A DNA stretch of 32,304 nt from Spirochaetales bacterium (GTDB lineage: Bacteria > Spirochaetota > Spirochaetia > Treponematales > Treponemataceae). Made by a program: the position numbers and the translations under genes. Position 1 is the stretch's first letter; each line of letters starts with the position of its first letter. Shown here one piece after another: positions 19,941-32,304 of the stretch. The DNA lies in NCBI GenBank assembly GCA_003245785.1, contig QKCE01000223.1, positions 1 through 32,304 of the forward strand, in the 5' to 3' direction. Under the pieces are notes generated by a model. The model had not been told where the DNA came from. It made no database searches and worked only from the letters and a program-made list of their open reading frames with translations.

Positions 19941-22025
19941 TTACAGCTTTTGCCAAAGCGTGGGCGCCTCGGCGGGGTTCCAGTTGGTGGCGTAGGCAAC
20001 GTGGGTTACCAGGCATTTGTAGCTCGATCCCTGGTAGGTCACGACCTGTCCCGCGACGTAGGAGCCGTTCAGGACCCATTCGGTGCCGCCCGTATCCCCG
20101 CCGGTGGAGGCGAGGGTCGTGAAGCTTACGGAACTTCCCGCGGACTCGTTGCCCGCGGCGTCGACGGCGGTTACGCTTATGGCGTAGCTCGTGGCGGCGG
20201 TGAGTCCCGACAGGCTATGGGACGTCCCGGTTACCGTGGCGACAAGGCTGCCGTTCTTCTTGACGCGGTAGCCCGTCACTCCCACGTTGTCGGAGCTCGC
20301 GGTCCAGGATATCGTCGCCCCGGTTTGGCTCACGGAGCCCGCGGTCACGCTGCCCGGCGCGGTGGGCGCCTGGGTGTCGGCCGTGGTATTTCCGGTTCCG
20401 CCCTTGGTGACCGTATAGGTGAGGGTCCCCGAGGCGGTAGTGCCGAAGCGGTTCGTCAGGCGGCACTGATAGGCGTACGATCCGTTCGCCTTGCCCGAGA
20501 AGGCGACGGCGACCCGCTGGGCGGTCGGCGAGGCGTCGGTGAGGGCGCGGGAAGCGACCACGGCGCCGTTTTCGAGAAGCTCGAAGAGCGTTCCGTTGTT
20601 GCCCCACCACATATCCATCGTGATCGTATAGTCCGCCTCCCCGTTCCACTTGTTCTGCGAAAGGGAGGGAGTCCCCGGCACTCCCGTAGCGGGGCCGTCC
20701 GTCGGGACCGTGGACGCCGCGGTCTTTCCCGTCACGGCGGCGCCATAGGCGCTCGAGTTGCCCGCCGCGTCGTAGGCGGCGACGGAAATCGAGTAGGAGG
20801 TATCGGCGGAGAGGCCCGAGACCGTGGCCGAGGTGCCCGAGGCGGTCATGTACTGGCTTCCGTTCACCGCGATTTTATAGCCCGATACGCCGACGTTGTC
20901 GGTGCTGGCGGACCAGGATATCGCGAGGCTCGACGAGGTGGCGGACTTGACGGTAAGCCCCGAGGGTACGCTGGGCGCGGAGGTGTCGCCGGGGTTGACC
21001 GTGCCGCCTCCGGCCTTTTGGTAGATCGCCGAAAGGAGGGAGGTGCCGTCGTTCGTGTCGTGGCTGAGTTCCCAGATCATGATGCCCCCCGCGCGGTCCA
21101 TGGCGAGCTGGGTTTTCGCCTGGATCGTCGGGATTCCGTTGTAATAGTCGCCGTTATAGTAGTCGGTGTAGGGCACGACCGAGGGCGCCAGGGGCACGAG
21201 CTCGTCGTAGGCGCGCCAGCTCGGGCGGGCGTAGAACGGCACGCCGAGGTTAATTTTCGAGGAAGGCGCGCCCCGCTGGGTAAGCCAGTAGTCCAGCGCG
21301 GAGGTGGCGTAGCTCATGGGGGAGTGGCCGGCCCCGGCGTCGCCGTCGTAGGCCATCACGTTGAGGAAGTCCACGGCGTTTATGACCGCGGAGGTCACCG
21401 CGTTGGCGGTCCAGCCCTGGGCGACGACCGCGGCGGAAAGGAGCTTGCCCCGGGAATGCATGGCCTGGGAGAGCTCGGTCATGAGGGCCACGTAATTCGT
21501 CTCGGAGGAGGTGCCCGCGTCCGGGTATTCCCAGTCCATGTCCACGCCGTCGAGGCCGTACTGGTTTACCAGGGACACGAGGTTGTTCACGAGGTTCGTC
21601 CTGGCCGAGGGGCTGGCGGCGAGCTGTTCGAAGGTGCCGTCGAGCTCCGCCCCGTTGTAGGACCAGCCGCCCACGGCGAGGGAAACCTTCACGCCCTTGG
21701 CGTGGGCCTTGCTCACGATACTCTGGAGTTTCGAGGTGTTTTCCAGCGAAATGATGTTTCCCGCGGTATTGGGAATGGCGAAGGCGTAGATCACGTGGGT
21801 GAGCTTGTCGAACTGGATTTCGTCCGCGGTCCCGCGCCAGCTGGCCGAGTACCCGACGATTTTGAAGCCGCTCGAGAGCGAGATGGCGCGGGCCGGGGTA
21901 TCCCCGCTCCCGCCGCCACCCGAAAGGGCGTTCGAACACCCGGCGAACGCGAGGGCTACGGCGGCGCAAAGCGCCCCCGCGAGGGCGAAAAATTTGCCGC
22001 GACTGATTCTCTTTTTTTTGATCAT
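19941..22025 (-). CDS. GH18 chitinase lipoprotein with FN3 and chitin-binding modules
   Basis: This is a 694-residue exported enzyme. The start at 22025 has AAGGAG 7 bases upstream and begins a lipoprotein signal peptide with lipobox AFAGC (Cys30). The GH18 barrel (about 53-336) has the catalytic DGVDMDWE motif (Asp159-Glu166, proton donor Glu166) and the substrate-contact MAYD near 224-227. It is followed by FN3 domain 1 (about 347-437), an Ig-like ChiA-N-terminal-type domain (about 440-540, with KWNGEADY and MDMWWGNN), FN3 domain 2 (about 548-640) and a C-terminal CBM5/12 module (about 645-694, with the aromatic residues of the chitin-binding surface). It would hydrolyse chitin outside the inner membrane while lipid-anchored. 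No other chitin genes are adjacent. The 177-base gap upstream holds no recognised riboswitch. Confidence 0.93.
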   Translation of the reverse strand: MIKKKRISRGKFFALAGALCAAVALAFAGCSNALSGGGGSGDTPARAISLSSGFKIVGYSASWRGTADEIQFDKLTHVIYAFAIPNTAGNIISLENTSKLQSIVSKAHAKGVKVSLAVGGWSYNGAELDGTFEQLAASPSARTNLVNNLVSLVNQYGLDGVDMDWEYPDAGTSSETNYVALMTELSQAMHSRGKLLSAAVVAQGWTANAVTSAVINAVDFLNVMAYDGDAGAGHSPMSYATSALDYWLTQRGAPSSKINLGVPFYARPSWRAYDELVPLAPSVVPYTDYYNGDYYNGIPTIQAKTQLAMDRAGGIMIWELSHDTNDGTSLLSAIYQKAGGGTVNPGDTSAPSVPSGLTVKSATSSSLAISWSASTDNVGVSGYKIAVNGSQYMTASGTSATVSGLSADTSYSISVAAYDAAGNSSAYGAAVTGKTAASTVPTDGPATGVPGTPSLSQNKWNGEADYTITMDMWWGNNGTLFELLENGAVVASRALTDASPTAQRVAVAFSGKANGSYAYQCRLTNRFGTTASGTLTYTVTKGGTGNTTADTQAPTAPGSVTAGSVSQTGATISWTASSDNVGVTGYRVKKNGSLVATVTGTSHSLSGLTAATSYAISVTAVDAAGNESAGSSVSFTTLASTGGDTGGTEWVLNGSYVAGQVVTYQGSSYKCLVTHVAYATNWNPAEAPTLWQKL

Positions 22026-22202
22026 GTTTTTTCTCCTTGTTTTCGCCAATCCGGGATCGGCTTTTTGGGCGCAATGCCCTAAATGGGGAGGTTTGTAATC
22101 CCTTTGTACCATCCTTGCACGGGGAGGGCCTCAGGGCGAGCGTTTTTTTCGCCTGGGAGGTGGGGAAGTTTCGTTACGGTGTCGGGATTTCGGAAGTTTG
22201 GC

Positions 22203-23231
22203 TCAGATAGCGCCGGATTCCGCGTCTATCGCCCGGCCCTGGTCGGCGAGATCCTCGATTTCGCGGATCCAGAAGGCTTTGGACCCCCAGTCGGGGTTCC
22301 GGTCGCGGAAGAGGGCGTCGTCCCGCTGACGGGCCTGCCAGTCGAGAAAATAGATCATGCGCATGAACCGGAGGGGCTCCACGATGGCGAGTTCCGCCCG
22401 GTCGAAGTGGGTGAATTCCGTGTAGCCCTCGAGGAGGAGCTCCATCTCCCTCCCGGAATCCGCCAGATGCCCGGGCAAGAGGAGCCAGAGGTCCTGGATC
22501 GCGGGTCCGCTCATCATATCGTCGAAATCGATGAGGAGGAGGGAGCCGTCGCCGGTCTCGAGGATGTTTCCCCGGTGGCAGTCCCCGTGGATGCGGATGT
22601 ATTCGCCGCGTTCGAGCTCGGCTTCGGCGAAGCGCGAGGCGCAGGTCTCAAGGCAAGACCCGGTAATCTCCAGGAATTCCTCCCTCATGTCGCCCTGTAC
22701 GGCGCCGGAGGAAACGAGGGCCTCGCACCGTTCGACGAAAAGCGGCACGGGGGAGAGCACGGGCCGGCGGGTCGCCCGGGCCTTTCGGGAAACCCCGTGG
22801 AGTCGGCCTATGAGCGCGCCCGCCCGGAGATAGTCTACGTCGCCCCTCAGGTCGAAGGTTCGCCCCCCGCGGAAGGGGAAAAGGGCGAAGGGAATGCCGT
22901 CCGCGTCGCCGAGGGTGGCGCACCGGTCCCGTCCCGCGCCTGCTTCGGGGTATCCGCCTTTTACGGGTAGCGGCGCGACCACCGGCAGTTCCGCCGCGGC
23001 GCAATCCGCCAGGAACGCGTGCTCCTCGGCGATGGCCCCGGTATCCCACCGGCCCGGGCGGTAAAACTTCGCCACGTAGCGGTTTCCGTCCTCGTCCTTA
23101 AGGCCGTACACGCGGTTCACGTAACTGTTGTAGGGCACGACGACGGGTTCCAAAAAGACGCCGAGGGCGCTTTCGGCCGCGTCGAGCACCGCGTCGGGGG
23201 AAAGGGACATAAAACCGGCGGATGGATTCAT
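22203..23231 (-). CDS. srkA: SrkA/YihE-type stress-response protein kinase
   Basis: This 342-residue protein with the aminoglycoside-phosphotransferase kinase fold matches SrkA (YihE/RdoA). Marks are NSYVNRVYGLKDEDGNRYVAKFYRP (35-59) with ATP-binding Lys55, EEHAFL (69-74), the FPFRGGRTF segment (118-126), the catalytic loop HGDCHRGNIL with Asp217 and Asn222, and DFDDMMSGPAIQDLW (235-249) with the metal-binding Asp. In E. coli, SrkA is a Ser/Thr kinase that protects against stress-induced death downstream of Cpx. Length is close to the usual 328. It is divergent from the trp operon. The ATG has GAGG only two bases before it, and a TATGCT hexamer ends 6 bases before it, so the mRNA may be leaderless. 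An alternative start is Met8. Confidence 0.9.
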   Translation of the reverse strand: MNPSAGFMSLSPDAVLDAAESALGVFLEPVVVPYNSYVNRVYGLKDEDGNRYVAKFYRPGRWDTGAIAEEHAFLADCAAAELPVVAPLPVKGGYPEAGAGRDRCATLGDADGIPFALFPFRGGRTFDLRGDVDYLRAGALIGRLHGVSRKARATRRPVLSPVPLFVERCEALVSSGAVQGDMREEFLEITGSCLETCASRFAEAELERGEYIRIHGDCHRGNILETGDGSLLLIDFDDMMSGPAIQDLWLLLPGHLADSGREMELLLEGYTEFTHFDRAELAIVEPLRFMRMIYFLDWQARQRDDALFRDRNPDWGSKAFWIREIEDLADQGRAIDAESGAI

Positions 23232-23237
23232 GCCTCA

Positions 23238-23243
23238 AGCATA
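23238..23243 (-). promoter_or_regulatory. Possible -10 element of srkA
   Basis: On the minus strand TATGCT lies 6 bases before the srkA ATG. No -35 fits at 17 or 18 bases. If real, transcription would start at or next to the A of the start codon. Confidence 0.35.
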
Positions 23244-23275
23244 ACACAGATCGGGATTTTTTTTCCGCCCGCGAA

Positions 23276-23297
23276 ATGTTTCTATTGACAGTAACAT
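23276..23297. promoter_or_regulatory. Trp operator-like palindrome O1 (over -35)
   Basis: This 22-base element is an imperfect inverted repeat that matches the perfect palindrome O2 at 18 of 22 positions and lies exactly 44 bases upstream of it. It covers the TTGACA hexamer of the trp promoter, so a bound protein would compete with RNA polymerase. Confidence 0.7.
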
Positions 23298-23313
23298 CAA
23301 GGGATGCTATTCT
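23285..23313 (+). promoter_or_regulatory. trp operon promoter
   Basis: The -35 is the perfect consensus TTGACA (23285-23290), the spacer is 17 bases and the -10 is TATTCT (23308-23313), with TGC before it as an extended -10. Transcription should begin near 23320, at the left edge of the second palindrome. Confidence 0.9.
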
Positions 23314-23319
23314 CCTGAC

Positions 23320-23341
23320 ATGTTACTATTTGTAGTAACAT
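23320..23341. promoter_or_regulatory. Trp operator-like palindrome O2 (at +1)
   Basis: A perfect 22-base inverted repeat, ATGTTACTA-N4-TAGTAACAT, begins at the predicted transcription start. In RNA it could also form a 9-bp hairpin at the extreme 5' end. The E. coli TrpR core has a 6-base gap between its CTA and TAG elements and this has 4, so a different regulator is likely. Confidence 0.8.
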
Positions 23342-23464
23342 CGGGGAACCTTCCGGAAGGGCGCATCGCGACCGCGTAACGCAAGCGCGTTTCGCGCCGC
23401 GCGCAAGGCCTTCCTTCGAGCCCTCCCGGCGGCGCCGGGGGGCGACCAATTTCAGGAGAACGCC
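23342..23464 (+). promoter_or_regulatory. trp mRNA leader
   Basis: The leader from O2 to trpE contains CCTTCCGGAAGG (23349-23360) and a CCCGGC-GGC-GCCGGG hairpin (23425-23439) without a T-run. It has no TGG codons in any short frame, so ribosome-mediated attenuation by a Trp leader peptide is unlikely. No T-box features are visible. AGGAG lies 7 bases before the trpE ATG. Confidence 0.45.
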
Positions 23465-24913
23465 ATGACACCCAAACGAAGCGACATGATTTCAGTGACC
23501 CTTCCCGGGGACCGGTACACCCCCTTTTCCCTGGCGAAAAAACTGGGGGCCCTCGCCATCCTCGAGTCCGCCTCCTTTTCCCACGGCCGGGAGCGCTACT
23601 CGATCCTCCTCGCCCGGGAAGCCTTCCGGATCCGCCAGGACGACCGCGGCGTGACCTTCACGATCGACGGCGAGGAAAGCGTGTATTCAGGCGGGGACAT
23701 TCTTGCCGCCCTCAAGTCCGTCGCCGCCCAGAACCCCCTCCCGCCGGACGGCATCCCGCTTCCCGCCTCGGGCGTGGGCTTTCTCGGCTACGAGTTCGCC
23801 GCCCGCTGCGACACGATCAGGCTGCGGGCGAATCCCGACGAGATCGGTATTCCCGAGTCGGAGTTCATCGTCGGCCACGTATACCTCGTGTTCGACCATT
23901 TCTCGGACCTCATCCACGTGTTCGCCCTCAACTACGCCGAGCACGAGATCGACCTCGACGGGGCCGTCGCCGACATCAGGAAGCGCATGCACGACCTCGA
24001 TTTCTCCTATCTCGAGCCCCCGGGAAGCGCCTACGAGTCGAAGGTCGTGTCCGACGAAGCCGCTTCGAAGGAAAACTTCGTCGCGGGGGTGAACGCGATC
24101 AAGGACCATATCACCCGGGGCAACCTCCTGCAGGCGGTCATGTCCCGACGCCTTGTGCTCGAGTCCGCCGAGAGCGCCCTCGAGGGCTACCGGCGGCTCC
24201 GTACCAAGAGCCCTTCGCCCTATCTTTTCTACCTCGATTTCGGTTCCTACCACATAATCGGCGCCTCCCCCGAGAGCCTCGTGCGGGTGCGCGATTCCGT
24301 AGCGTCCATCCGGCCCATCGCGGGAACCCGGCGGCGCGGCAAGACGGCGGAGGAAGACGCGGCGCTCAAGGCAGAGCTCCTGGCGGACCCGAAGGAGCGG
24401 GCGGAGCACCTCATGCTCGTGGACCTCGCGCGGAACGACCTGGGCCGGGTGTGCCTGCCCGGCACGGTGCGCCTGACCCGCAACATGGAAGCGGAGCTTT
24501 TCAGCCACGTCATGCACATCGTCTCCGACGTGACCGGCGAGTTGGGCAAGGGCCCCGCCCCGGGCAGCGCGGCGGCCAACGGACCGGGCTCCGCCCCCGA
24601 GGGCATCGACGTGCTCCGCGCGGCCTTTCCCGCGGGCACCGTGTCCGGGGCGCCGAAGATACGGGCGATCGAGATTCTCTCGGGCCTGGAAAAGGCCCGG
24701 CGCGGCTTTTACGCCGGGGCGGTGGGCTACGTCGAGCCCGACGGCGACCTGGACTTCTGCATCGCGATCCGCTGCGCCCTCAGGAAGGGCGACCGCTGGT
24801 ACCTGCAGGCCGGGGCCGGCATAGTCGCCGCCTCCGAGGCCGAGCGGGAATGGGAAGAGACGAACGAAAAGCTTTCGGCCCTGCGCGCCGTGCTCGAAGG
24901 GGGCACCAAATGA
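23465..24913 (+). CDS. trpE: Anthranilate synthase component I
   Basis: TrpE (482 residues) converts chorismate and ammonia or glutamine to anthranilate together with the TrpG domain of the next gene. The N-terminal regulatory region has ILESA (32-36), part of the LLES-type tryptophan feedback site. The chorismate-binding domain shows NLLQAVMSRRL, GASPESLVRV, RPIAGTRRRG, LVDLARNDLGRV, FPAGTVSGAPKIRA and QAGAGIV near the C-terminus. An Ala/Gly/Pro-rich insertion of about 20 residues near 360-378 is unusual. PabB is excluded by the operon context and the feedback motif. The stop codon overlaps the start of trpGD (ATGA), giving translational coupling. Confidence 0.97.
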   Translation: MTPKRSDMISVTLPGDRYTPFSLAKKLGALAILESASFSHGRERYSILLAREAFRIRQDDRGVTFTIDGEESVYSGGDILAALKSVAAQNPLPPDGIPLPASGVGFLGYEFAARCDTIRLRANPDEIGIPESEFIVGHVYLVFDHFSDLIHVFALNYAEHEIDLDGAVADIRKRMHDLDFSYLEPPGSAYESKVVSDEAASKENFVAGVNAIKDHITRGNLLQAVMSRRLVLESAESALEGYRRLRTKSPSPYLFYLDFGSYHIIGASPESLVRVRDSVASIRPIAGTRRRGKTAEEDAALKAELLADPKERAEHLMLVDLARNDLGRVCLPGTVRLTRNMEAELFSHVMHIVSDVTGELGKGPAPGSAAANGPGSAPEGIDVLRAAFPAGTVSGAPKIRAIEILSGLEKARRGFYAGAVGYVEPDGDLDFCIAIRCALRKGDRWYLQAGAGIVAASEAEREWEETNEKLSALRAVLEGGTK

Positions 24914-26502
24914 TAGTCATGATCGACAACTACGACTCGTTTACCTACAACGTCTACCAGCTCCTCGCGCGGCTCACCCCCGAGGAAACCCGGGTAATCC
25001 GGAACGACCAACTGACCCTCGCGGAGCTCGTCGCCCTCAAGCCCTCGCGGCTCGTGGTCTCCCCGGGCCCGGGCCGGCCGGAGGAGGCGGGAATCAGCGT
25101 GGAGGCGATCCGCCACTTCGCCGGAAAAATCCCGGTGCTCGGCATTTGCCTGGGCCACCAGGCCATCGGTTACGCCTTCGGCGCGAAGATCGTCGGGGCG
25201 AAGTTCATCAAGCACGGCATCGCCGAGGAAATCGCCCTGGACGGGAAGGGACTCTTCCGCACCGTCGGGACGAAGGCGACCTTCACCCGATACCACAGCC
25301 TGGTCATCGACGAGTCCACCCTGCCCCCGGAACTCGAGGTGACCGCCCGGGCCGCCGACGGCGACATTATGGGCGTGCGGCACCGGGAATACGAGCTCGA
25401 GGGGGTGCAATTCCACCCCGAATCCATCGCGAGCGAGTCCGGCGAGGCGCTCATCCGGGCCTTCCTCAACTATCGCCGGGAGAATTTCCCCTTCAATGCC
25501 TGCCTTGCCCGGCTGCTCGAGGGCGAGAGCCTGAGCCGGGAGAACGCGGAACTTTTCATGGAAGACCTTACCGAGGGCTCCCTGGACGAGCGGAAAACCA
25601 CCGCCATCCTCACCGCCCTCGCGGCCAAGGGCCCTTCCGCCGAGGAAATAGCGGGCTGCGCCGCGGTTCTGTGCCGTAAGAAAAAACCCATCCCGATATC
25701 GAGCGACCTGACCGACGTGGTCGGCACCGGGGGCGACGGGCTCGGGTCCTTCAACATCAGCTCCATGGCGGCCCTCGTGGCGGCGGCCTGCGGGCTCCCG
25801 GTGGCCAAGCACGGCAACCGTGCCGTTTCCAGCAAGTCCGGCGCCGCGGATTTTTACGAGGCCCTGGGCTTCAAGATCGACAATCCCCCGGAGAAAACCG
25901 CCGCGACCATCGGCTCGACGGGCTTCGGCTTCCTCTTCGCCCCGGTGTACCACAGCGCCATGCGCTTCGCCGCGCCGGTCCGGAAGGTCATGGGCGTCAA
26001 GACGATCATGAACCTCATCGGTCCCCTGTCGAATCCCGCGGGGGCCCGGTACCAGATGATCGGCGTCTATAGCCGCTCGCTCATGCATCCCGTCGCGAGG
26101 GCGGCGGTCATGCTCGGCAGCGAGCGCGTGATGGTCGTCGCGAGCCGGGACGGCCTGGACGAGATTTCGCCCTGCGCCCTTACCGACGTGGTCGAGATGG
26201 ATTCCACCGGCTCGCTCCTCGAGTACACCATCAGCCCCGCCGACTTCGGCATCGAAGGCTGTTCCGTCGAGGAGCTTCTCGGGGGCGACTCCGAGACCAA
26301 CGCGGGCCTCGCCAGGGACCTCCTCGCGGGGACGGGCCGGAAGTCCATACGGGAGGCGGTGGCCCTCAACGCGGGGGCCACGCTGTTCGTCGCCCGGAAG
26401 GTCCCCACCCTCGAGGCGGGTTACCGGGCCGCCCTCGCCGCGATCGGCGACGGTTCCGTCGCGCGGAAGATCGAAGAGGTGCGGGAGGCGACCAATGCCT
26501 GA
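24910..26502 (+). CDS. trpGD: TrpGD fusion: anthranilate synthase glutamine amidotransferase and phosphoribosyltransferase
   Basis: This is a 530-residue bifunctional enzyme. The TrpG amidotransferase (1 to about 190) has DNYDSFTYN, SPGPGRP, the catalytic Cys80 in GICLGHQ, and the His169/Glu171 pair in QFHPES. The TrpD phosphoribosyltransferase (about 197-530) has VGTGGDG (271-277), FNISSMAA, KHGNRAVSSKSGAADFYEALG and NLIGPLSNPAGA, the signatures for PRPP and anthranilate binding. The same G-D fusion is found in E. coli. The ATG at 24910 overlaps the trpE stop, and a much longer open frame upstream is non-coding shadow of trpE. The 3' end overlaps trpCF by 8 bases. Confidence 0.97.
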   Translation: MIVMIDNYDSFTYNVYQLLARLTPEETRVIRNDQLTLAELVALKPSRLVVSPGPGRPEEAGISVEAIRHFAGKIPVLGICLGHQAIGYAFGAKIVGAKFIKHGIAEEIALDGKGLFRTVGTKATFTRYHSLVIDESTLPPELEVTARAADGDIMGVRHREYELEGVQFHPESIASESGEALIRAFLNYRRENFPFNACLARLLEGESLSRENAELFMEDLTEGSLDERKTTAILTALAAKGPSAEEIAGCAAVLCRKKKPIPISSDLTDVVGTGGDGLGSFNISSMAALVAAACGLPVAKHGNRAVSSKSGAADFYEALGFKIDNPPEKTAATIGSTGFGFLFAPVYHSAMRFAAPVRKVMGVKTIMNLIGPLSNPAGARYQMIGVYSRSLMHPVARAAVMLGSERVMVVASRDGLDEISPCALTDVVEMDSTGSLLEYTISPADFGIEGCSVEELLGGDSETNAGLARDLLAGTGRKSIREAVALNAGATLFVARKVPTLEAGYRAALAAIGDGSVARKIEEVREATNA

Positions 26503-28045
26503 CATCCTCGACGAGATCGTCGCGAGGAGAAGGGAAGATTACGCGCGGCTCGGACCGACCTTCGGGGTCGACGTTCCCGCCCATCGGTCCCGGGCCCTCG
26601 TGCCGTTTCTCGCGGAGAGCGGGGCCATTCTCGAGATCAAGCGCGCCTCGCCCTCCAAGGGAGACATCGCGCCGGACCTCGACCCCGTCGGCCTCGCGGC
26701 GAAATACCGGGCGGCGGGGGCGAAAAACGTCTCGGTGCTCACCGAGTCCCGCTATTTCAAGGGTTCCCTCGCGGACCTCGTGGCGGTCGGCCGCGCCCAC
26801 CCCGACCTATCCCTTCTCCGCAAGGACTTCATCCTCTACGAGGACGAGATTGAGGTGGCCTGGCGGGCAGGGGCCGACGCGGTGCTCCTCATCGCGCGGA
26901 TCCTGGAGCTCCCGGCCCTCCTCAAGCTCGCGGCCGCGGTGCGCGCCCGGGGCATGACGGCCTTTATCGAGGTGCGGGAGGAAGGGGACGTGGAAAAGCT
27001 GAACCAGGCCCTTCGGGCGGGTCCCGTCCTCGCGGGGGTGAACTCCCGCGACCTGGCGACCTTCCGGATCGATCCCCTGGTGCCCGCCATCATGCGCTCG
27101 CGCCTCCGCTGCCGCTGCGTCTTCGAGTCGGGCACCGCGACGCCCGAGGCGGCGCGTTTCGCCCGGCGGCTCGGTTTCGAGGGCATCCTGATCGGGGAAG
27201 CGGCGGCGAAAAACCCGGAAGCGGCGGGCGTCCTCGTGGGCGCCTTCGCGGGGGCTTTCCCGGACTGGAACGGCCACTTCTGGCGGGAAATGGGGCGGAG
27301 AATCGCGGAGCGAAGCCGGGCGGCCTCCGCTTCGGGCGGCGGGACGGCGATGCGGCCCCTCGTGAAGGTGTGCGGCCTTACCAGGGCGGAAGACGCCCTT
27401 TTGGCCGCGGAACTCGGTGCGGACCTTCTCGGCTTCGTGTTCGCCGAAAGCCCGCGAAAGGCGGACCGCGCCCGGGTAATAGAGGCCGCGACGGCCCTCA
27501 ACGTCCGCTATGACCGGGAAGCGGCGGCCCGGCGGCCCCTTCTCGTGGCCGTGGTGACCGGCGCGGACGAAAACGACCCCGCGGTGCGCGACGCCTTTTC
27601 CCTCGTCCGTGAGGGTATCCTGGACGGGGTTCAGTTTCACGGGGAAGGGGGCTGGGCCGAGCTGGAGCGGGTAGAGGCCGCGGGCTGCGGCTCCGGCATG
27701 GGCCATTACGCGGCGGTGCGGCTCGGGAGCGAGGAGGACCTCGCGCTCCTGGACGACCTCGTGGCCCACGGAGAGCCCCGGGTCCTCGTGGACGCCCGGG
27801 TCCAGGGCGTCGCCGGAGGGACCGGGAAGGCCGTCCCGGAGGGGCTCGTAAAAAAGGTCGCCGATCGGACGGGTCTCTGGCTCGCCGGCGGGCTCGGCCC
27901 CGGGAACGTCGCGGAAGCGATCGGGAAATTCTCGCCGGAGCTCGTGGACGCGTCGAGCGCCCTCGAGGCGTCGCCCGGGATAAAGGACGGGGCGCTTTTG
28001 CGGGCGTTTTTCGAGGCGGTTCGCGGCGGAACGGCCGGGGCTTGA
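26495..28045 (+). CDS. trpCF: TrpCF fusion: indole-3-glycerol-phosphate synthase and phosphoribosylanthranilate isomerase
   Basis: This is a 516-residue bifunctional enzyme. The TrpC barrel (1 to about 255) carries EIKRASPSKG (47-56, Lys49), LLRKDFI with general acid Lys110, FIEVREE with general base Glu159, Asn183 in GVNSRDL and Glu211 in ESG. After a linker rich in Ala, Ser and Gly (about 270-285), the TrpF barrel (about 286-516) has KVCGLTR with catalytic Cys293, VQFHGEG, Asp433 in LVDAR, and AGGLGPGNV. It catalyses two consecutive steps, from phosphoribosylanthranilate to indoleglycerol phosphate. The domain order is that of E. coli. An internal ATG at 27350 (Met286) precedes the TrpF part, but the frame is continuous. 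Confidence 0.96.
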   Translation: MPDILDEIVARRREDYARLGPTFGVDVPAHRSRALVPFLAESGAILEIKRASPSKGDIAPDLDPVGLAAKYRAAGAKNVSVLTESRYFKGSLADLVAVGRAHPDLSLLRKDFILYEDEIEVAWRAGADAVLLIARILELPALLKLAAAVRARGMTAFIEVREEGDVEKLNQALRAGPVLAGVNSRDLATFRIDPLVPAIMRSRLRCRCVFESGTATPEAARFARRLGFEGILIGEAAAKNPEAAGVLVGAFAGAFPDWNGHFWREMGRRIAERSRAASASGGGTAMRPLVKVCGLTRAEDALLAAELGADLLGFVFAESPRKADRARVIEAATALNVRYDREAAARRPLLVAVVTGADENDPAVRDAFSLVREGILDGVQFHGEGGWAELERVEAAGCGSGMGHYAAVRLGSEEDLALLDDLVAHGEPRVLVDARVQGVAGGTGKAVPEGLVKKVADRTGLWLAGGLGPGNVAEAIGKFSPELVDASSALEASPGIKDGALLRAFFEAVRGGTAGA

Positions 28046-28068
28046 GAAAAAGGAATAAGGAAAAATCG

Positions 28069-29328
28069 ATGGAAACGACTGGATATTTCGACCGGTTCGG
28101 CGGGCGGTACGTCGCCGAGGTTTTGAGAAGGCCCCTGGAGGAACTGGGAATCGCCTTCGCCGAGGCGACGGGCGACCGGGCCTTCATGGAGCTCCTGGAA
28201 GGGCTCCGGCGCGATTTCATCGGCCGGCCGACCCCTCTCCTCTTCGCCGAAAACGCCTCCCGGGAGCTTGGTGGCGCGCGAATCTACGTGAAAATGGAAG
28301 GACTCGCCCACACGGGGGCCCACAAGATAAACAACGCGATAGGCCAGGCCCTCCTCGCGAAGCGAATGGGCAAGACGCGCATCATCGCCGAAACCGGGGC
28401 GGGCCAGCACGGCCTCGCCACCGCCTCGGCCTGCGCGCGGCTCGGCCTGGAGTGCACGGTGTACATGGGCGAGGTCGACGTGAGGCGGCAGCAGCCGAAC
28501 GTCGCGGCCATGGAGCTCTACGGCGCGAAGGTGGTACCGGTGACCTCGGGTTCCCGGACTCTCAAGGACGCGATCAACGAGGCCATGCGCGATTGGGCGG
28601 CGAGCTTCGCGGACACCCATTACCTCATCGGCTCGGCCCTGGGGCCCGCGCCCTTCCCGGACATGGTGAGGGAATTCCAGTCGGTCATCGGGTCGGAAAC
28701 CCGCGAACAGATCGCCGAGCGCGGGCTATCCGTGGAAGCCCTCGTCGCCTGCGTGGGCGGCGGTTCCAACGCCATCGGCTTCTTCTCGCCCTTCATCGAC
28801 GCGGCCTCTCCCCGGCTCATCGGCGCGGAGGCGGGCGGAATAGGCCCGGGCCCGGGGGAAAACGCCGCCCGCATGACCGGGACCGCTGCGAGCGACGGCA
28901 TAATCCACGGCTACAAGAGCCGGTTCCTCACCGACGAAGACGGCCAGGTCGCCGAGACCCGGTCCATCTCGGCGGGACTCGACTATCCGGGCATAGGGCC
29001 CCAGCTTGCGGCCCTCGGGGAGTCGGGCCGCATCGAATTCACCGCGGTGCGCGACCGGGAGGCCCTGGAGGCCCTGCGCTTTTTCGCCCGGACCGAGGGG
29101 GTAATCTTCGCCCTCGAGAGCGCCCACGCGGGAGCCGCCGCCATGGCCCTCGCGCCCACCCTGCCCAAGGACCGCGCGATCGTCGTGAACATGTCGGGAC
29201 GGGGGGACAAGGACATCTTCATCACCTCTCCCGTATTCCGGCCGGCGGACTGGACCGGCTTCCTCCGGGCCGAGCTCGCCCGGCTCGAATCGGGCGAGGA
29301 AATCCACGTATTCGGAGGCCGAGAATGA
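28069..29328 (+). CDS. trpB: Tryptophan synthase beta chain
   Basis: This 419-residue PLP enzyme joins indole and serine into tryptophan. It shows GRPTPLLFA, the PLP-binding HTGAHKINN with Lys86, ETGAGQHG with the catalytic Glu, VDVRRQQPNV, the phosphate-binding GGGSNA and the tail motif NMSGRGDKD. These mark the standard TrpB1 type that pairs with TrpA. The ATG at 28069 is preferred over an in-frame TTG at 28042 because AAGGA lies about 8 bases before it and the protein then begins at the usual GYFDRFGGRYV. It overlaps trpA by an ATGA junction. Confidence 0.97.
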   Translation: METTGYFDRFGGRYVAEVLRRPLEELGIAFAEATGDRAFMELLEGLRRDFIGRPTPLLFAENASRELGGARIYVKMEGLAHTGAHKINNAIGQALLAKRMGKTRIIAETGAGQHGLATASACARLGLECTVYMGEVDVRRQQPNVAAMELYGAKVVPVTSGSRTLKDAINEAMRDWAASFADTHYLIGSALGPAPFPDMVREFQSVIGSETREQIAERGLSVEALVACVGGGSNAIGFFSPFIDAASPRLIGAEAGGIGPGPGENAARMTGTAASDGIIHGYKSRFLTDEDGQVAETRSISAGLDYPGIGPQLAALGESGRIEFTAVRDREALEALRFFARTEGVIFALESAHAGAAAMALAPTLPKDRAIVVNMSGRGDKDIFITSPVFRPADWTGFLRAELARLESGEEIHVFGGRE

Positions 29329-30125
29329 CCCTTCCAAACCGAGCGCCCGTCCGGGTAATGGCCCATCTCGTCGCGGGCTATCCCGACGACTCCCTCGCCC
29401 TCGCCGCCGCCGACGGCCTCGCCGCGGGAGGCGTTTCAGCCTTCGAGGTCCAGCTGCCCTTCAGCGACCCGAGCGCCGACGGCGTCGCGATCCAGACCGC
29501 CTGCGCCGAGGTCCTTTCGCGGGGCTACCGCGTCGCCCGGGGACTCGCCTTCGTCGGCGAACTGAAAGCCCGGTACCCGGAAATTCCGGCCTTTATCATG
29601 ACCTACGCGAACCTCGCCTGGAAGGCGGGAATCGAGCGCTTCGCGGACCTCGCCGCGAAATCGGGGGCGAAGGGTCTCATCGTTCCCGACCTGCCCTTCG
29701 ATTCCGACGAGGGCCTCGCCGCGGCTTGCGCCGCCCGGGGACTCGTCTCGGTTCCGGTGGCCGCCCCTTCCATGACCCCGGATCGTATCGCCGCCCTGGC
29801 CGCCCTGGACCGGCCCCTGGTCTACGCCGCCCTCCGGGCGGGAATCACCGGGAGCGAAACCCGTATCGACGCGGAGACCCTCGCGTTTCTCGCATCCCTC
29901 GAAGGAAGCGCCGGGACAGGGGACGCCGGGCAGGAATCCCGGGTCCTGGGAGGCTTCGGGATCCGGAACGGGGAACAGGCCTCCCGGCTCGCCCCGCGCG
30001 TGCACGCCGTCGTGGCAGGCTCGGTTTTCGTGGAACTTATCCGGGGCGCGGCCCCATCGGGCGCCGACGCGGTACGGGAAGCGGTCCGGAAAAAGGCGGC
30101 GGAACTATCCGGTTTTGGACAATAG
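29325..30125 (+). CDS. trpA: Tryptophan synthase alpha chain
   Basis: This 266-residue TIM barrel cleaves indoleglycerol phosphate to indole, which is channelled to TrpB. Catalytic Glu41 (FEVQLPFSDP) and Asp52 (SADG) are in place, as are the GLIVPDLP strand, the YAALRAGITGS loop that closes the site, and the phosphate-binding GGFGI. The segment reads EVQLPFSDPSADG where E. coli has ELGIPFSDPLADG. GGAGG precedes the ATG by 6 bases, and the start overlaps the trpB stop. No terminator follows; the last codons of trpA contain the promoter of the next gene. Confidence 0.96.
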   Translation: MTLPNRAPVRVMAHLVAGYPDDSLALAAADGLAAGGVSAFEVQLPFSDPSADGVAIQTACAEVLSRGYRVARGLAFVGELKARYPEIPAFIMTYANLAWKAGIERFADLAAKSGAKGLIVPDLPFDSDEGLAAACAARGLVSVPVAAPSMTPDRIAALAALDRPLVYAALRAGITGSETRIDAETLAFLASLEGSAGTGDAGQESRVLGGFGIRNGEQASRLAPRVHAVVAGSVFVELIRGAAPSGADAVREAVRKKAAELSGFGQ

Positions 30126-30144
30126 GCGCGTATCCGGTTATACT
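30116..30144 (+). promoter_or_regulatory. Promoter of the hybrid kinase, inside the end of trpA
   Basis: TGGACA (30116-30121) and TATACT (30139-30144) are 17 bases apart, each matching consensus at 5 of 6 positions. The -35 lies within the last codons of trpA. The predicted leader is about 17 bases, so the kinase can be expressed apart from the trp operon. Confidence 0.7.
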
Positions 30145-30167
30145 GAGGGAACGGAAACGACCCCAAA

Positions 30168-31958
30168 ATGGATAGAACAAAACATTCGCGCGTCGGCCTC
30201 GTGATCCTGGTCACGGCCGTCCTGGCCCTGGTCATCGCCCAGGCGCTTTTCCTCTGGCTTCTCTTCGGCGCCGGCCGCTACGTCTGCGTCGCGGAGGACT
30301 TCTTCCCGTCCCTGGGGGGAGTTCCCCTCGGCGTGTACGGCATCGGCGCGGTGGGCTTCCTGCTCTTTCCGTGCGTAGTCGGCATGGCCGTCCATTTCAT
30401 GCTGATGCGCCGGCGCTTCGACGAGGAATCCGGGGCCAGCGAGAATTTCCACAGCATCGCCACCGAGATGTTCTCCCGGCTCGATACGGGCGTCATCGTC
30501 CTCGACCGGGACTATCGCGTGCTCATGCGCAACCCGGCGAGCGAGCGCATTCTCGAGCTCTCGCCGGGTACCATCGCCCCCGGCACGGTGTGGAGCTCCT
30601 TCGTGAACCCCGTACTCGTCCCGGTGGCGGAGCGCCTGGCGGACTCCCTCGACCGAAGCGTGCCCTTTTCCAGGGAATTCCGGGTATTCCTGCCGAGCGG
30701 CGTGCGCTGCGTGCGCCTGGAGCTCAACTCCTTCGAAGCCCCCCTTTCGGGACTCCTTTACGCCCTAATCATCGTCGACAACACGAGGGAAGACGAGATA
30801 AAGCAGAAGCTGGTGCAGCAGCTCGAGGAAACCCACCGGCACGCCGTAGCGAAGGACAACTTCTTCGCGAACATGAGCCACGAGATCCGCACGCCGATCA
30901 ACGCGATCCTGGGCATGACCTACTTCGCGAAAAGCTTCGCCAAGGAACCGAAGGCGATCGAGTATATAGAAAAGATCGAGAACGCCTCGGATATCCTCCT
31001 CGGGATCGTGAACGACATCCTGGACTTTTCGAAGATGCAGGAGCACAAGTTTTCGCTCAATCCCGAGACCTTCAACCTTTACGGGATGCGGAAGGTCCTC
31101 CTGGACCTTTTCGCGGACAAGGCGAAACAGAAGGGCCTCGACCTCGCCATAGACATCGGCTGCCCCGAGGAATTCTACGTGTTCGCCGACCAGTTCCGGC
31201 TCACCCAGATCTTCATGAACCTCCTGAGCAACTCGATCAAGTTCACCGACGAGGGACAGGTGCACGTGAGCGCGAACGTGGAGCTCGTGACCAACGAGGT
31301 CATCCTGCGGTGCGCGGTCCGGGATACGGGCTGCGGCCTCGACGAGGACGAAATTTCGCGCCTCTTCACGGATTTCGAGCAGTTCGGCAAGGTACTCGTG
31401 AAAAACCAGGAGGGAACCGGCCTCGGCCTCGCGATCACCAAGCGGCTCGTGGAGCTCATGAACGGCGTGATCTGGGTGGACAGCACCCCGGGCAAGGGCT
31501 CGATCTTTCATTTCGTCGTGGTGCTCAAGCGTTCCGGCGCGAAGGGCCCAGTCCCCGTCGACGCCTCTCTGCCCCACGTGGAACTGCGAACCCGGCGCGT
31601 CCTCGTGGTGGAGGACAACGAGATAAACGCGGAGATCGCCGGGACGCTCCTCGCGGAGAGCGGCTGCACCGTCGAGTACGCCTCGGACGGCGTGGAAGCC
31701 GTGGAAATGTGCCGCGACCGGGAACCCGACTATTTCGACCTCGTGCTCATGGACATACACATGCCGCGCATGGACGGCTACCAGGCCGCCCGGATCATCA
31801 AGGAAGAGCTGGGCGTTTCCTGCCCGATCCTGGCGGTTACCGCGACGAGCGACAATACGGACCAACTCGAGAAAAACCGCGACGTGATCGCCAATTATCT
31901 CCTGAAACCCTATACCCCCGGCGTCTTCAAGGCCATTTTCGGCAAGGGCGGACGCTGA
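30168..31958 (+). CDS. Hybrid sensor histidine kinase (membrane, PAS, HisKA, HATPase, receiver)
   Basis: This is a 596-residue kinase. Two membrane helices (about 8-34 and 52-80) enclose a short outside loop with Cys40. A PAS-like domain (about 95-205) leads to a HisKA domain with His238 in FFANMSHEIRTPINAILGM, an HATPase domain with NLLSNSIKF (351-359), DTGCGL (386-391) and GTGLGLAI (416-423), and a C-terminal receiver with EDNEIN (482-487), Asp529 in LMDIHMP and Lys580. No DNA-binding output is present, so the signal probably passes to a phosphotransfer protein or another regulator. The membrane hairpin loosely resembles the first hairpin of VKOR proteins. An acyl-CoA thioesterase gene follows after 12 bases. 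Confidence 0.93.
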   Translation: MDRTKHSRVGLVILVTAVLALVIAQALFLWLLFGAGRYVCVAEDFFPSLGGVPLGVYGIGAVGFLLFPCVVGMAVHFMLMRRRFDEESGASENFHSIATEMFSRLDTGVIVLDRDYRVLMRNPASERILELSPGTIAPGTVWSSFVNPVLVPVAERLADSLDRSVPFSREFRVFLPSGVRCVRLELNSFEAPLSGLLYALIIVDNTREDEIKQKLVQQLEETHRHAVAKDNFFANMSHEIRTPINAILGMTYFAKSFAKEPKAIEYIEKIENASDILLGIVNDILDFSKMQEHKFSLNPETFNLYGMRKVLLDLFADKAKQKGLDLAIDIGCPEEFYVFADQFRLTQIFMNLLSNSIKFTDEGQVHVSANVELVTNEVILRCAVRDTGCGLDEDEISRLFTDFEQFGKVLVKNQEGTGLGLAITKRLVELMNGVIWVDSTPGKGSIFHFVVVLKRSGAKGPVPVDASLPHVELRTRRVLVVEDNEINAEIAGTLLAESGCTVEYASDGVEAVEMCRDREPDYFDLVLMDIHMPRMDGYQAARIIKEELGVSCPILAVTATSDNTDQLEKNRDVIANYLLKPYTPGVFKAIFGKGGR

Positions 31959-31970
31959 TCGGAGAGCGTT

Positions 31971-32304
31971 ATGGACAGTTATACCCTCGTGAGGACCGAA
32001 CACCTCAACCACCACGGAAAGCTTTTCGGCGGCCAATTGCTGAAATGGGTCGACGAGTACGCGTGGATGGCCGCGTCCCGGGACTTTTGCGGCTCGATCC
32101 TCGTGACCCGCGCCATGGAAAACCTGGAATTCCGGCACGCCGTGCCCAACGGCTCCATCATGCATTTTTCGGTGAACCTCGCGCATCGGGGAACCACCTC
32201 CGCCACCTATTCCGTCGACGTCTACGCCGACATGCCCGGCCAGTACGAGGAGAAGCTGATCTTCACGAACAGCGTCACCTTCGTGGCCGTCGACGAGGGG
32301 GGCA
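31971..32304 (+). CDS. Acyl-CoA thioesterase, hotdog fold (5' part)
   Basis: The frame runs off the window after 111 codons. It matches hotdog acyl-CoA thioesterases (YciA/ACOT type): the opening HLNHHGKLFGGQLLKWVDEYAW has the conserved Asn, the GG turn and the Asp of the active site, followed by EFRHAVPNGSIMHFSVNLAHRGTTSATYSVDVYA. Such enzymes hydrolyse acyl-CoA to free acid and CoA in the cytoplasm. GGAGA lies 6 bases before the ATG. It starts 12 bases after the kinase stop and is probably co-transcribed with it. Confidence 0.85.
   Translation, partial: MDSYTLVRTEHLNHHGKLFGGQLLKWVDEYAWMAASRDFCGSILVTRAMENLEFRHAVPNGSIMHFSVNLAHRGTTSATYSVDVYADMPGQYEEKLIFTNSVTFVAVDEGG

Follow-up and report, generated by a model that had tools for sequence, protein, structure and literature searches.

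The trp operon in the window (the whole stretch of 32,304 nucleotides that was analysed) has its promoter flanked by two similar palindromes, O1 and O2 (Table 1), and the question raised by this locus is which regulator they serve. A first-pass annotation of the sequence had read them as repressor operators that were not of TrpR type and possibly belonged to an undescribed trp regulator. The presence and positions of both palindromes, their identity at 18 of 22 positions and their start-to-start distance of 44 bp were all confirmed. O2 was shown to be ATGTTACTA-TTTG-TAGTAACAT, so that its description as a perfect palindrome holds for the 9-bp arms and fails for the 4-base TTTG centre, which is not self-complementary; O1 showed self-complementarity at 14 of 20 positions over its inner 20 bases. 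The sigma-70-like promoter TTGACA-17 bp-TATTCT was the only one found in the region. Its whole -35 hexamer falls within O1 and O2 starts about 7 bp past the -10 hexamer, which agrees with the earlier description of two copies bracketing the trp promoter, with O1 over the -35.

Table 1. Features of the trp promoter region and its neighbouring genes (positions in the window).
Feature	Position	Strand	Remarks
O1, upstream TrpR-type operator (predicted)	23276..23297	.	ATGTTTCTATTGACAGTAACAT; -35 hexamer in centre
O2, downstream TrpR-type operator (predicted)	23320..23341	.	ATGTTACTATTTGTAGTAACAT; at predicted start point
-35 hexamer TTGACA	23285..23290	+	Inside O1
-10 hexamer TATTCT, TG before it	23308..23313	+	Between O1 and O2
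srkA-like kinase, divergent neighbour	22203..23231	-	NF008738, 301 bits; start codon ~45 bp from O1
trpE, anthranilate synthase component I, first gene of controlled operon	23465..24913	+	TIGR00564, 458 bits
trpGD, fused glutamine amidotransferase / anthranilate phosphoribosyltransferase	24919..26502	+	NF011201, 724 bits, over cut-off
trpCF, fused indole-3-glycerol-phosphate synthase / phosphoribosylanthranilate isomerase	26495..28045	+	NF006945, 180 bits
trpB, tryptophan synthase beta	28042..29328	+	TIGR00263, 544 bits, over cut-off
trpA, tryptophan synthase alpha	29325..30125	+	PF00290, 158 bits

That the sites arose by chance, as simple palindromes of high AT content against a GC-rich background, has a negligible probability: 100 dinucleotide-preserving shuffles of the window gave 0 matches with up to 3 mismatches compared to the 2 observed, and the sites were found to be conserved before trpE in relatives and across families and phyla (see below), which together refute a chance origin. 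Control at the RNA level by trp attenuation or a T-box was also rejected, since an Rfam scan of positions 22000-32304 detected no such leader RNA before trpE and gave a weak, irrelevant miRNA as its sole match.

As the first-pass annotation had observed, no regulator gene adjoins the trp operon; trpR is located on another contig. The genome was found to contain one TrpR-family gene (C49:6459-6779), encoding a protein of 106 aa, with 51.5 bits for PF01371 (cut-off 27) and 48.7 bits for the stricter TIGR01321, under its curated cut-off of 67.25. The AlphaFold model of the protein showed six helices (pLDDT 88), and in a Foldseek search of the PDB with this model the first 43 matches were all TrpR-family structures, with a best E-value of 4.7e-3; modest E-values are usual with small helical proteins. 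The residues that we take to contact tryptophan in TrpR (Thr44, Arg54, Arg84, and Gly85, E. coli numbering) are all kept, and their equivalents were invariant in 25 Treponematales sequences. Among the DNA-contacting residues of TrpR, namely Arg69, Ile79, Ala80, Thr81, Thr83, and Arg84 (PMC9413887), Arg69, Thr83, and Arg84 are kept, while positions 79-81 read LCK instead of IAT, and one residue is missing before the QRE motif. Judged from the aligned residues, the LCK replacement would be in line with an altered operator core.

A search of the 3.3-Mb assembly, allowing up to 3 mismatches, gave five matches including O1 and O2, compared to 0 for the reversed control pattern. One site on C294 lies about 15 bp upstream of an operon for a TrpX-type binding protein, a permease and an ATPase (trpX1YZ), and one on C140 lies upstream of a lactate/malate-dehydrogenase-like gene that is followed by a second TrpX-type operon (trpX2). 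The dehydrogenase-like gene itself (L010:3952-4922), placed between a trp operator and the trpX2 operon, may encode a tryptophan-linked 2-hydroxyacid dehydrogenase. A match at C283:4677-4698 (L011), with 3 mismatches and within a short AT-rich intergenic stretch, had no clear trp link and is possibly due to chance. A looser pattern, also with up to 3 mismatches, gave 21 matches in the same genome compared to 20 for its reversed control, and therefore only matches with 0-1 mismatches or with clear pairing or positioning were used. These included, on C87, two sites 50 bp apart ahead of a gene of TrpB2 type and, on C49, a weak palindrome (TGTTTCTCATGGAAGAAACG) that spans the trpR start codon (L008:6451-6470). 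This palindrome was also present at the corresponding position of trpR in five congeners (G001, G002, G004, G006, and G008). It may serve trpR autoregulation under the constraint of the coding sequence; taken by itself, it could also reflect coding constraint. Weak matches at C92:2363 and C260:1092 were without trp genes and were discarded.

Footprinting of trpE upstream regions, which had been proposed as a check, was done on 59 genomes of the same order, the genome under study included; TrpR was present in 53 and trpE in 25 of these. Where the DNA upstream of trpE was readable, at least one site scoring at least 13/18 was found in 22 of 23 cases. The single exception, G042, was shown by two independent searches to lack TrpR as well. 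In 18 of the 22 site-bearing trpE promoters, O1 contains TTGACA, a spacer of 16-18 bp leads to the -10, and O2 follows 5-15 bp past the -10. Further targets in relatives were trpX, trpB, trpB2, and trpP, and most trpX promoters seen had a single strong site. The consensus operator is the 20-bp palindrome TGTTACTAnnnnTAGTAACA.

The same comparison bears on the suggestion that a wider regulator acts through these sites on the divergent srkA-like gene as well. The short distance from O1 to the srkA start codon (Table 1) speaks for it. However, G004 and G002, both near relatives, were the only ones whose upstream DNA appears srkA-like by eye, while the others keep the sites beside other neighbours, and elsewhere the motif was not seen at any stress-type gene. 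All other targets that we found belong to tryptophan or aromatic metabolism; the proposed wider role is thus unsupported and we consider it improbable, and we do not count the srkA-like kinase among the regulon genes.

Across 247 Spirochaetota genomes, the pattern GTTWCTRTNNRYAGWAAC was present in 84 of 138 genomes with TrpR compared to 5 of 109 without it (Fisher p = 3e-22, genomes taken as independent), and the reversed control pattern was present in 6 and 1 genomes, respectively. The 54 TrpR-containing genomes without an exact-pattern site include all 25 of family f25 (e.g., G103 and G150), whose TrpR may recognise a different operator or act on different genes. Three of the five exceptions without TrpR (G025, G152, and G190, all of one genus) share an asymmetric, non-palindromic match, GTTTCTATCCGCAGAAAC, that is probably located inside one conserved gene. 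In the fourth, G272, the site lies 26 bp upstream of a trpB-like gene and the assembly is 94% complete, so that trpR may be missing from the assembly. In seven distant Spirochaetota (G079, G089, G104, G122, G126, G206, and G237) the site is found directly at trpR, and in other distant members of the phylum sites were found at trpE, trpD, trpX, and a class II DAHP synthase gene. The last of these would, as read from gene position, widen the regulon to include the entry reaction of the aromatic pathway. In the distant spirochaete G124, the class II DAHP synthase gene (L185:170-1489) is located 12 bp from the operator.

When GTDB species genomes were scanned for exact copies of TGTTACTATNNATAGTAACA, 58 stretches were obtained, most of them from Treponema and Spirochaetales. 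A trp gene was present in 30 of the 58 (BLAST against references from the genome under study and one relative), nearly always directly downstream of the site. In seven more stretches, all from Treponema MAGs (L112, L115, L129, L131, L132, L152, and L153), a TrpP-like gene adjoins the site, an assignment for which Pfam (PF17099) was tested on one of the seven; an operator in this position would place a TrpP-type tryptophan transporter under TrpR. Besides, the site was found at the start of a trpR-trpB operon in seven stretches (L108, L110, L116, L118, L123, L143, and L146) from Gastranaerophilales/Melainabacteria, a Caldisericaceae MAG, and rumen bacteria. Six of these seven showed the twin arrangement, O1 with TTGACA and then O2, at a spacing of 28 or 36 bp.

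These operons bear on both remaining alternatives. A different, undescribed regulator might act at the sites, with TrpR as a mere passenger; the position of trpR away from the trp operon in this genome and a core unlike the E. coli operator would be compatible with this. However, the motif stands at trpR in distant families and in other phyla, where trpR is the first gene of the operon, its occurrence tracks the presence of TrpR, and no other regulator gene was found to recur beside the sites examined. We regard such a regulator as very improbable. As a TrpR homologue is encoded in the genome, and the motif co-occurs with TrpR and is found at trpR in distant lineages, neither the exclusion of a TrpR-type operator nor the appeal to an undescribed regulator is upheld, and it is a TrpR homologue that very probably binds the palindromes, an outcome which the first-pass annotation had itself named as contrary to its reading. 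Its view of the palindromes as repressor operators of the trp promoter is supported, with the sites as putative TrpR operators.

The other alternative, that O1 and O2 form a cooperative or looping pair held in a fixed helical phase, finds some support in the twin layout kept in 18 trpE and 6 trpR-trpB promoters, and the third, abutting site found at 21 bp in the trpE promoters of G014, G020, and G027 would allow side-by-side contact. However, the start-to-start distance of O1 and O2 was 41, 42, 43, 44, 45, 46, 48, 49, 50, or 52 bp in most relatives, in addition to the shorter spacings of the trpR-trpB operons, which shows that neither the 44 bp nor the helical phase is conserved and that the earlier description of the pair as phased and looping does not hold. 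The single strong site at most trpX promoters also argues against such a pair, and the -35 hexamer and the start point are sufficient to explain where each site lies. We therefore consider a phased pair unlikely, and DNA looping over 44 bp between dimers as small as those of TrpR also appears unlikely.

Taken together, we consider it very likely that O1 and O2 are the operators of the organism's own tryptophan-dependent TrpR-family repressor, while from sequence comparisons we infer that it binds the sites physically, that tryptophan is its corepressor, and that it represses by excluding RNA polymerase. In the proposed mechanism, a tryptophan-bound TrpR dimer would occupy each of the two 20-bp palindromes. 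The dimer on O1 would cover the -35 hexamer, itself part of the operator, and since this hexamer lies in the O1 centre, repressor and sigma factor would compete for the same bases; the dimer on O2 would cover the start point. One dimer, on either site, would suffice to block access of RNA polymerase to the promoter, and the pair would repress more tightly. Under tryptophan shortage, the repressor would dissociate and trpEGDCFBA would be transcribed. The same signal would control uptake through trpXYZ, trpB2, and probably trpR itself.

We also think it probable, with less confidence than for the operators themselves, that this repressor represents a distinct TrpR subfamily, with a one-residue deletion before the HTH, an SLCK[IV]TRG recognition helix, an operator code of its own (TGTTACTAnnnnTAGTAACA) and the -35 built into the operator, which would be common to Spirochaetota, Gastranaerophilales, and a small number of further phyla and would amount to a naturally occurring change of specificity among TrpR-family proteins. 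No description of TrpR in spirochaetes was found in the open-access literature searched, although one may still exist. The results would provide an operator motif by which tryptophan control can be recognised across Spirochaetota and in certain uncultured phyla, link trpX and trpP transporter genes and free-standing trpB genes into one regulon, and offer a natural case of altered DNA specificity in a textbook repressor; an unknown trp regulator need not be postulated.

Operators of the TrpR family are 20-bp palindromes with a lineage-specific consensus (PMC9413887). This also applies to HisR (YerC), the histidine repressor of the TrpR family, which controls his genes, carries Tyr for Arg69 and Ser for Thr83, and has the consensus cacTTTAnnnnnnTAAAgtg. 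The repressor studied here belongs to the same protein family and shares this type of operator; however, it keeps Arg69 and Thr83, and a HisR identity was rejected on account of the sites at trp genes and the Arg69 kept in the QRE motif. Chlamydia trachomatis trpRBA (PMC7755916, PMC6504234) resembles the seven trpR-trpB stretches in having trpR first in a self-controlled operon, a likeness in gene order; unlike there, most targets found here are unlinked to trpR.

The closest parallel is the TrpR of E. coli and other gammaproteobacteria, also a TrpR-family repressor with a 20-bp palindrome with outer TGT...ACA that overlaps the promoter. Known TrpR regulons comprise trp biosynthesis, tryptophan uptake, and trpR (PMC5343134), which is the range of targets seen in the spirochaetes, where the trpX and trpP transporters are included as a difference. 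The claim that the operator sequence is unlike that of E. coli was borne out, the spirochaete core being TGTTACTAnnnnTAGTAACA and not the gammaproteobacterial consensus TGTAcTnGTnnACnAgTACA (PMC9413887). Besides, the spirochaete operator includes the -35 hexamer and is present in two copies, and the spirochaete TrpR is one residue shorter before QRE and has SLCK[IV]TRG for GIATITRG. As far as sequence can tell, the spirochaete system is a lineage-specific TrpR variant that agrees with the known systems in the defining features open to test, except for the exact core sequence and, in part, the DNA-contacting residues.
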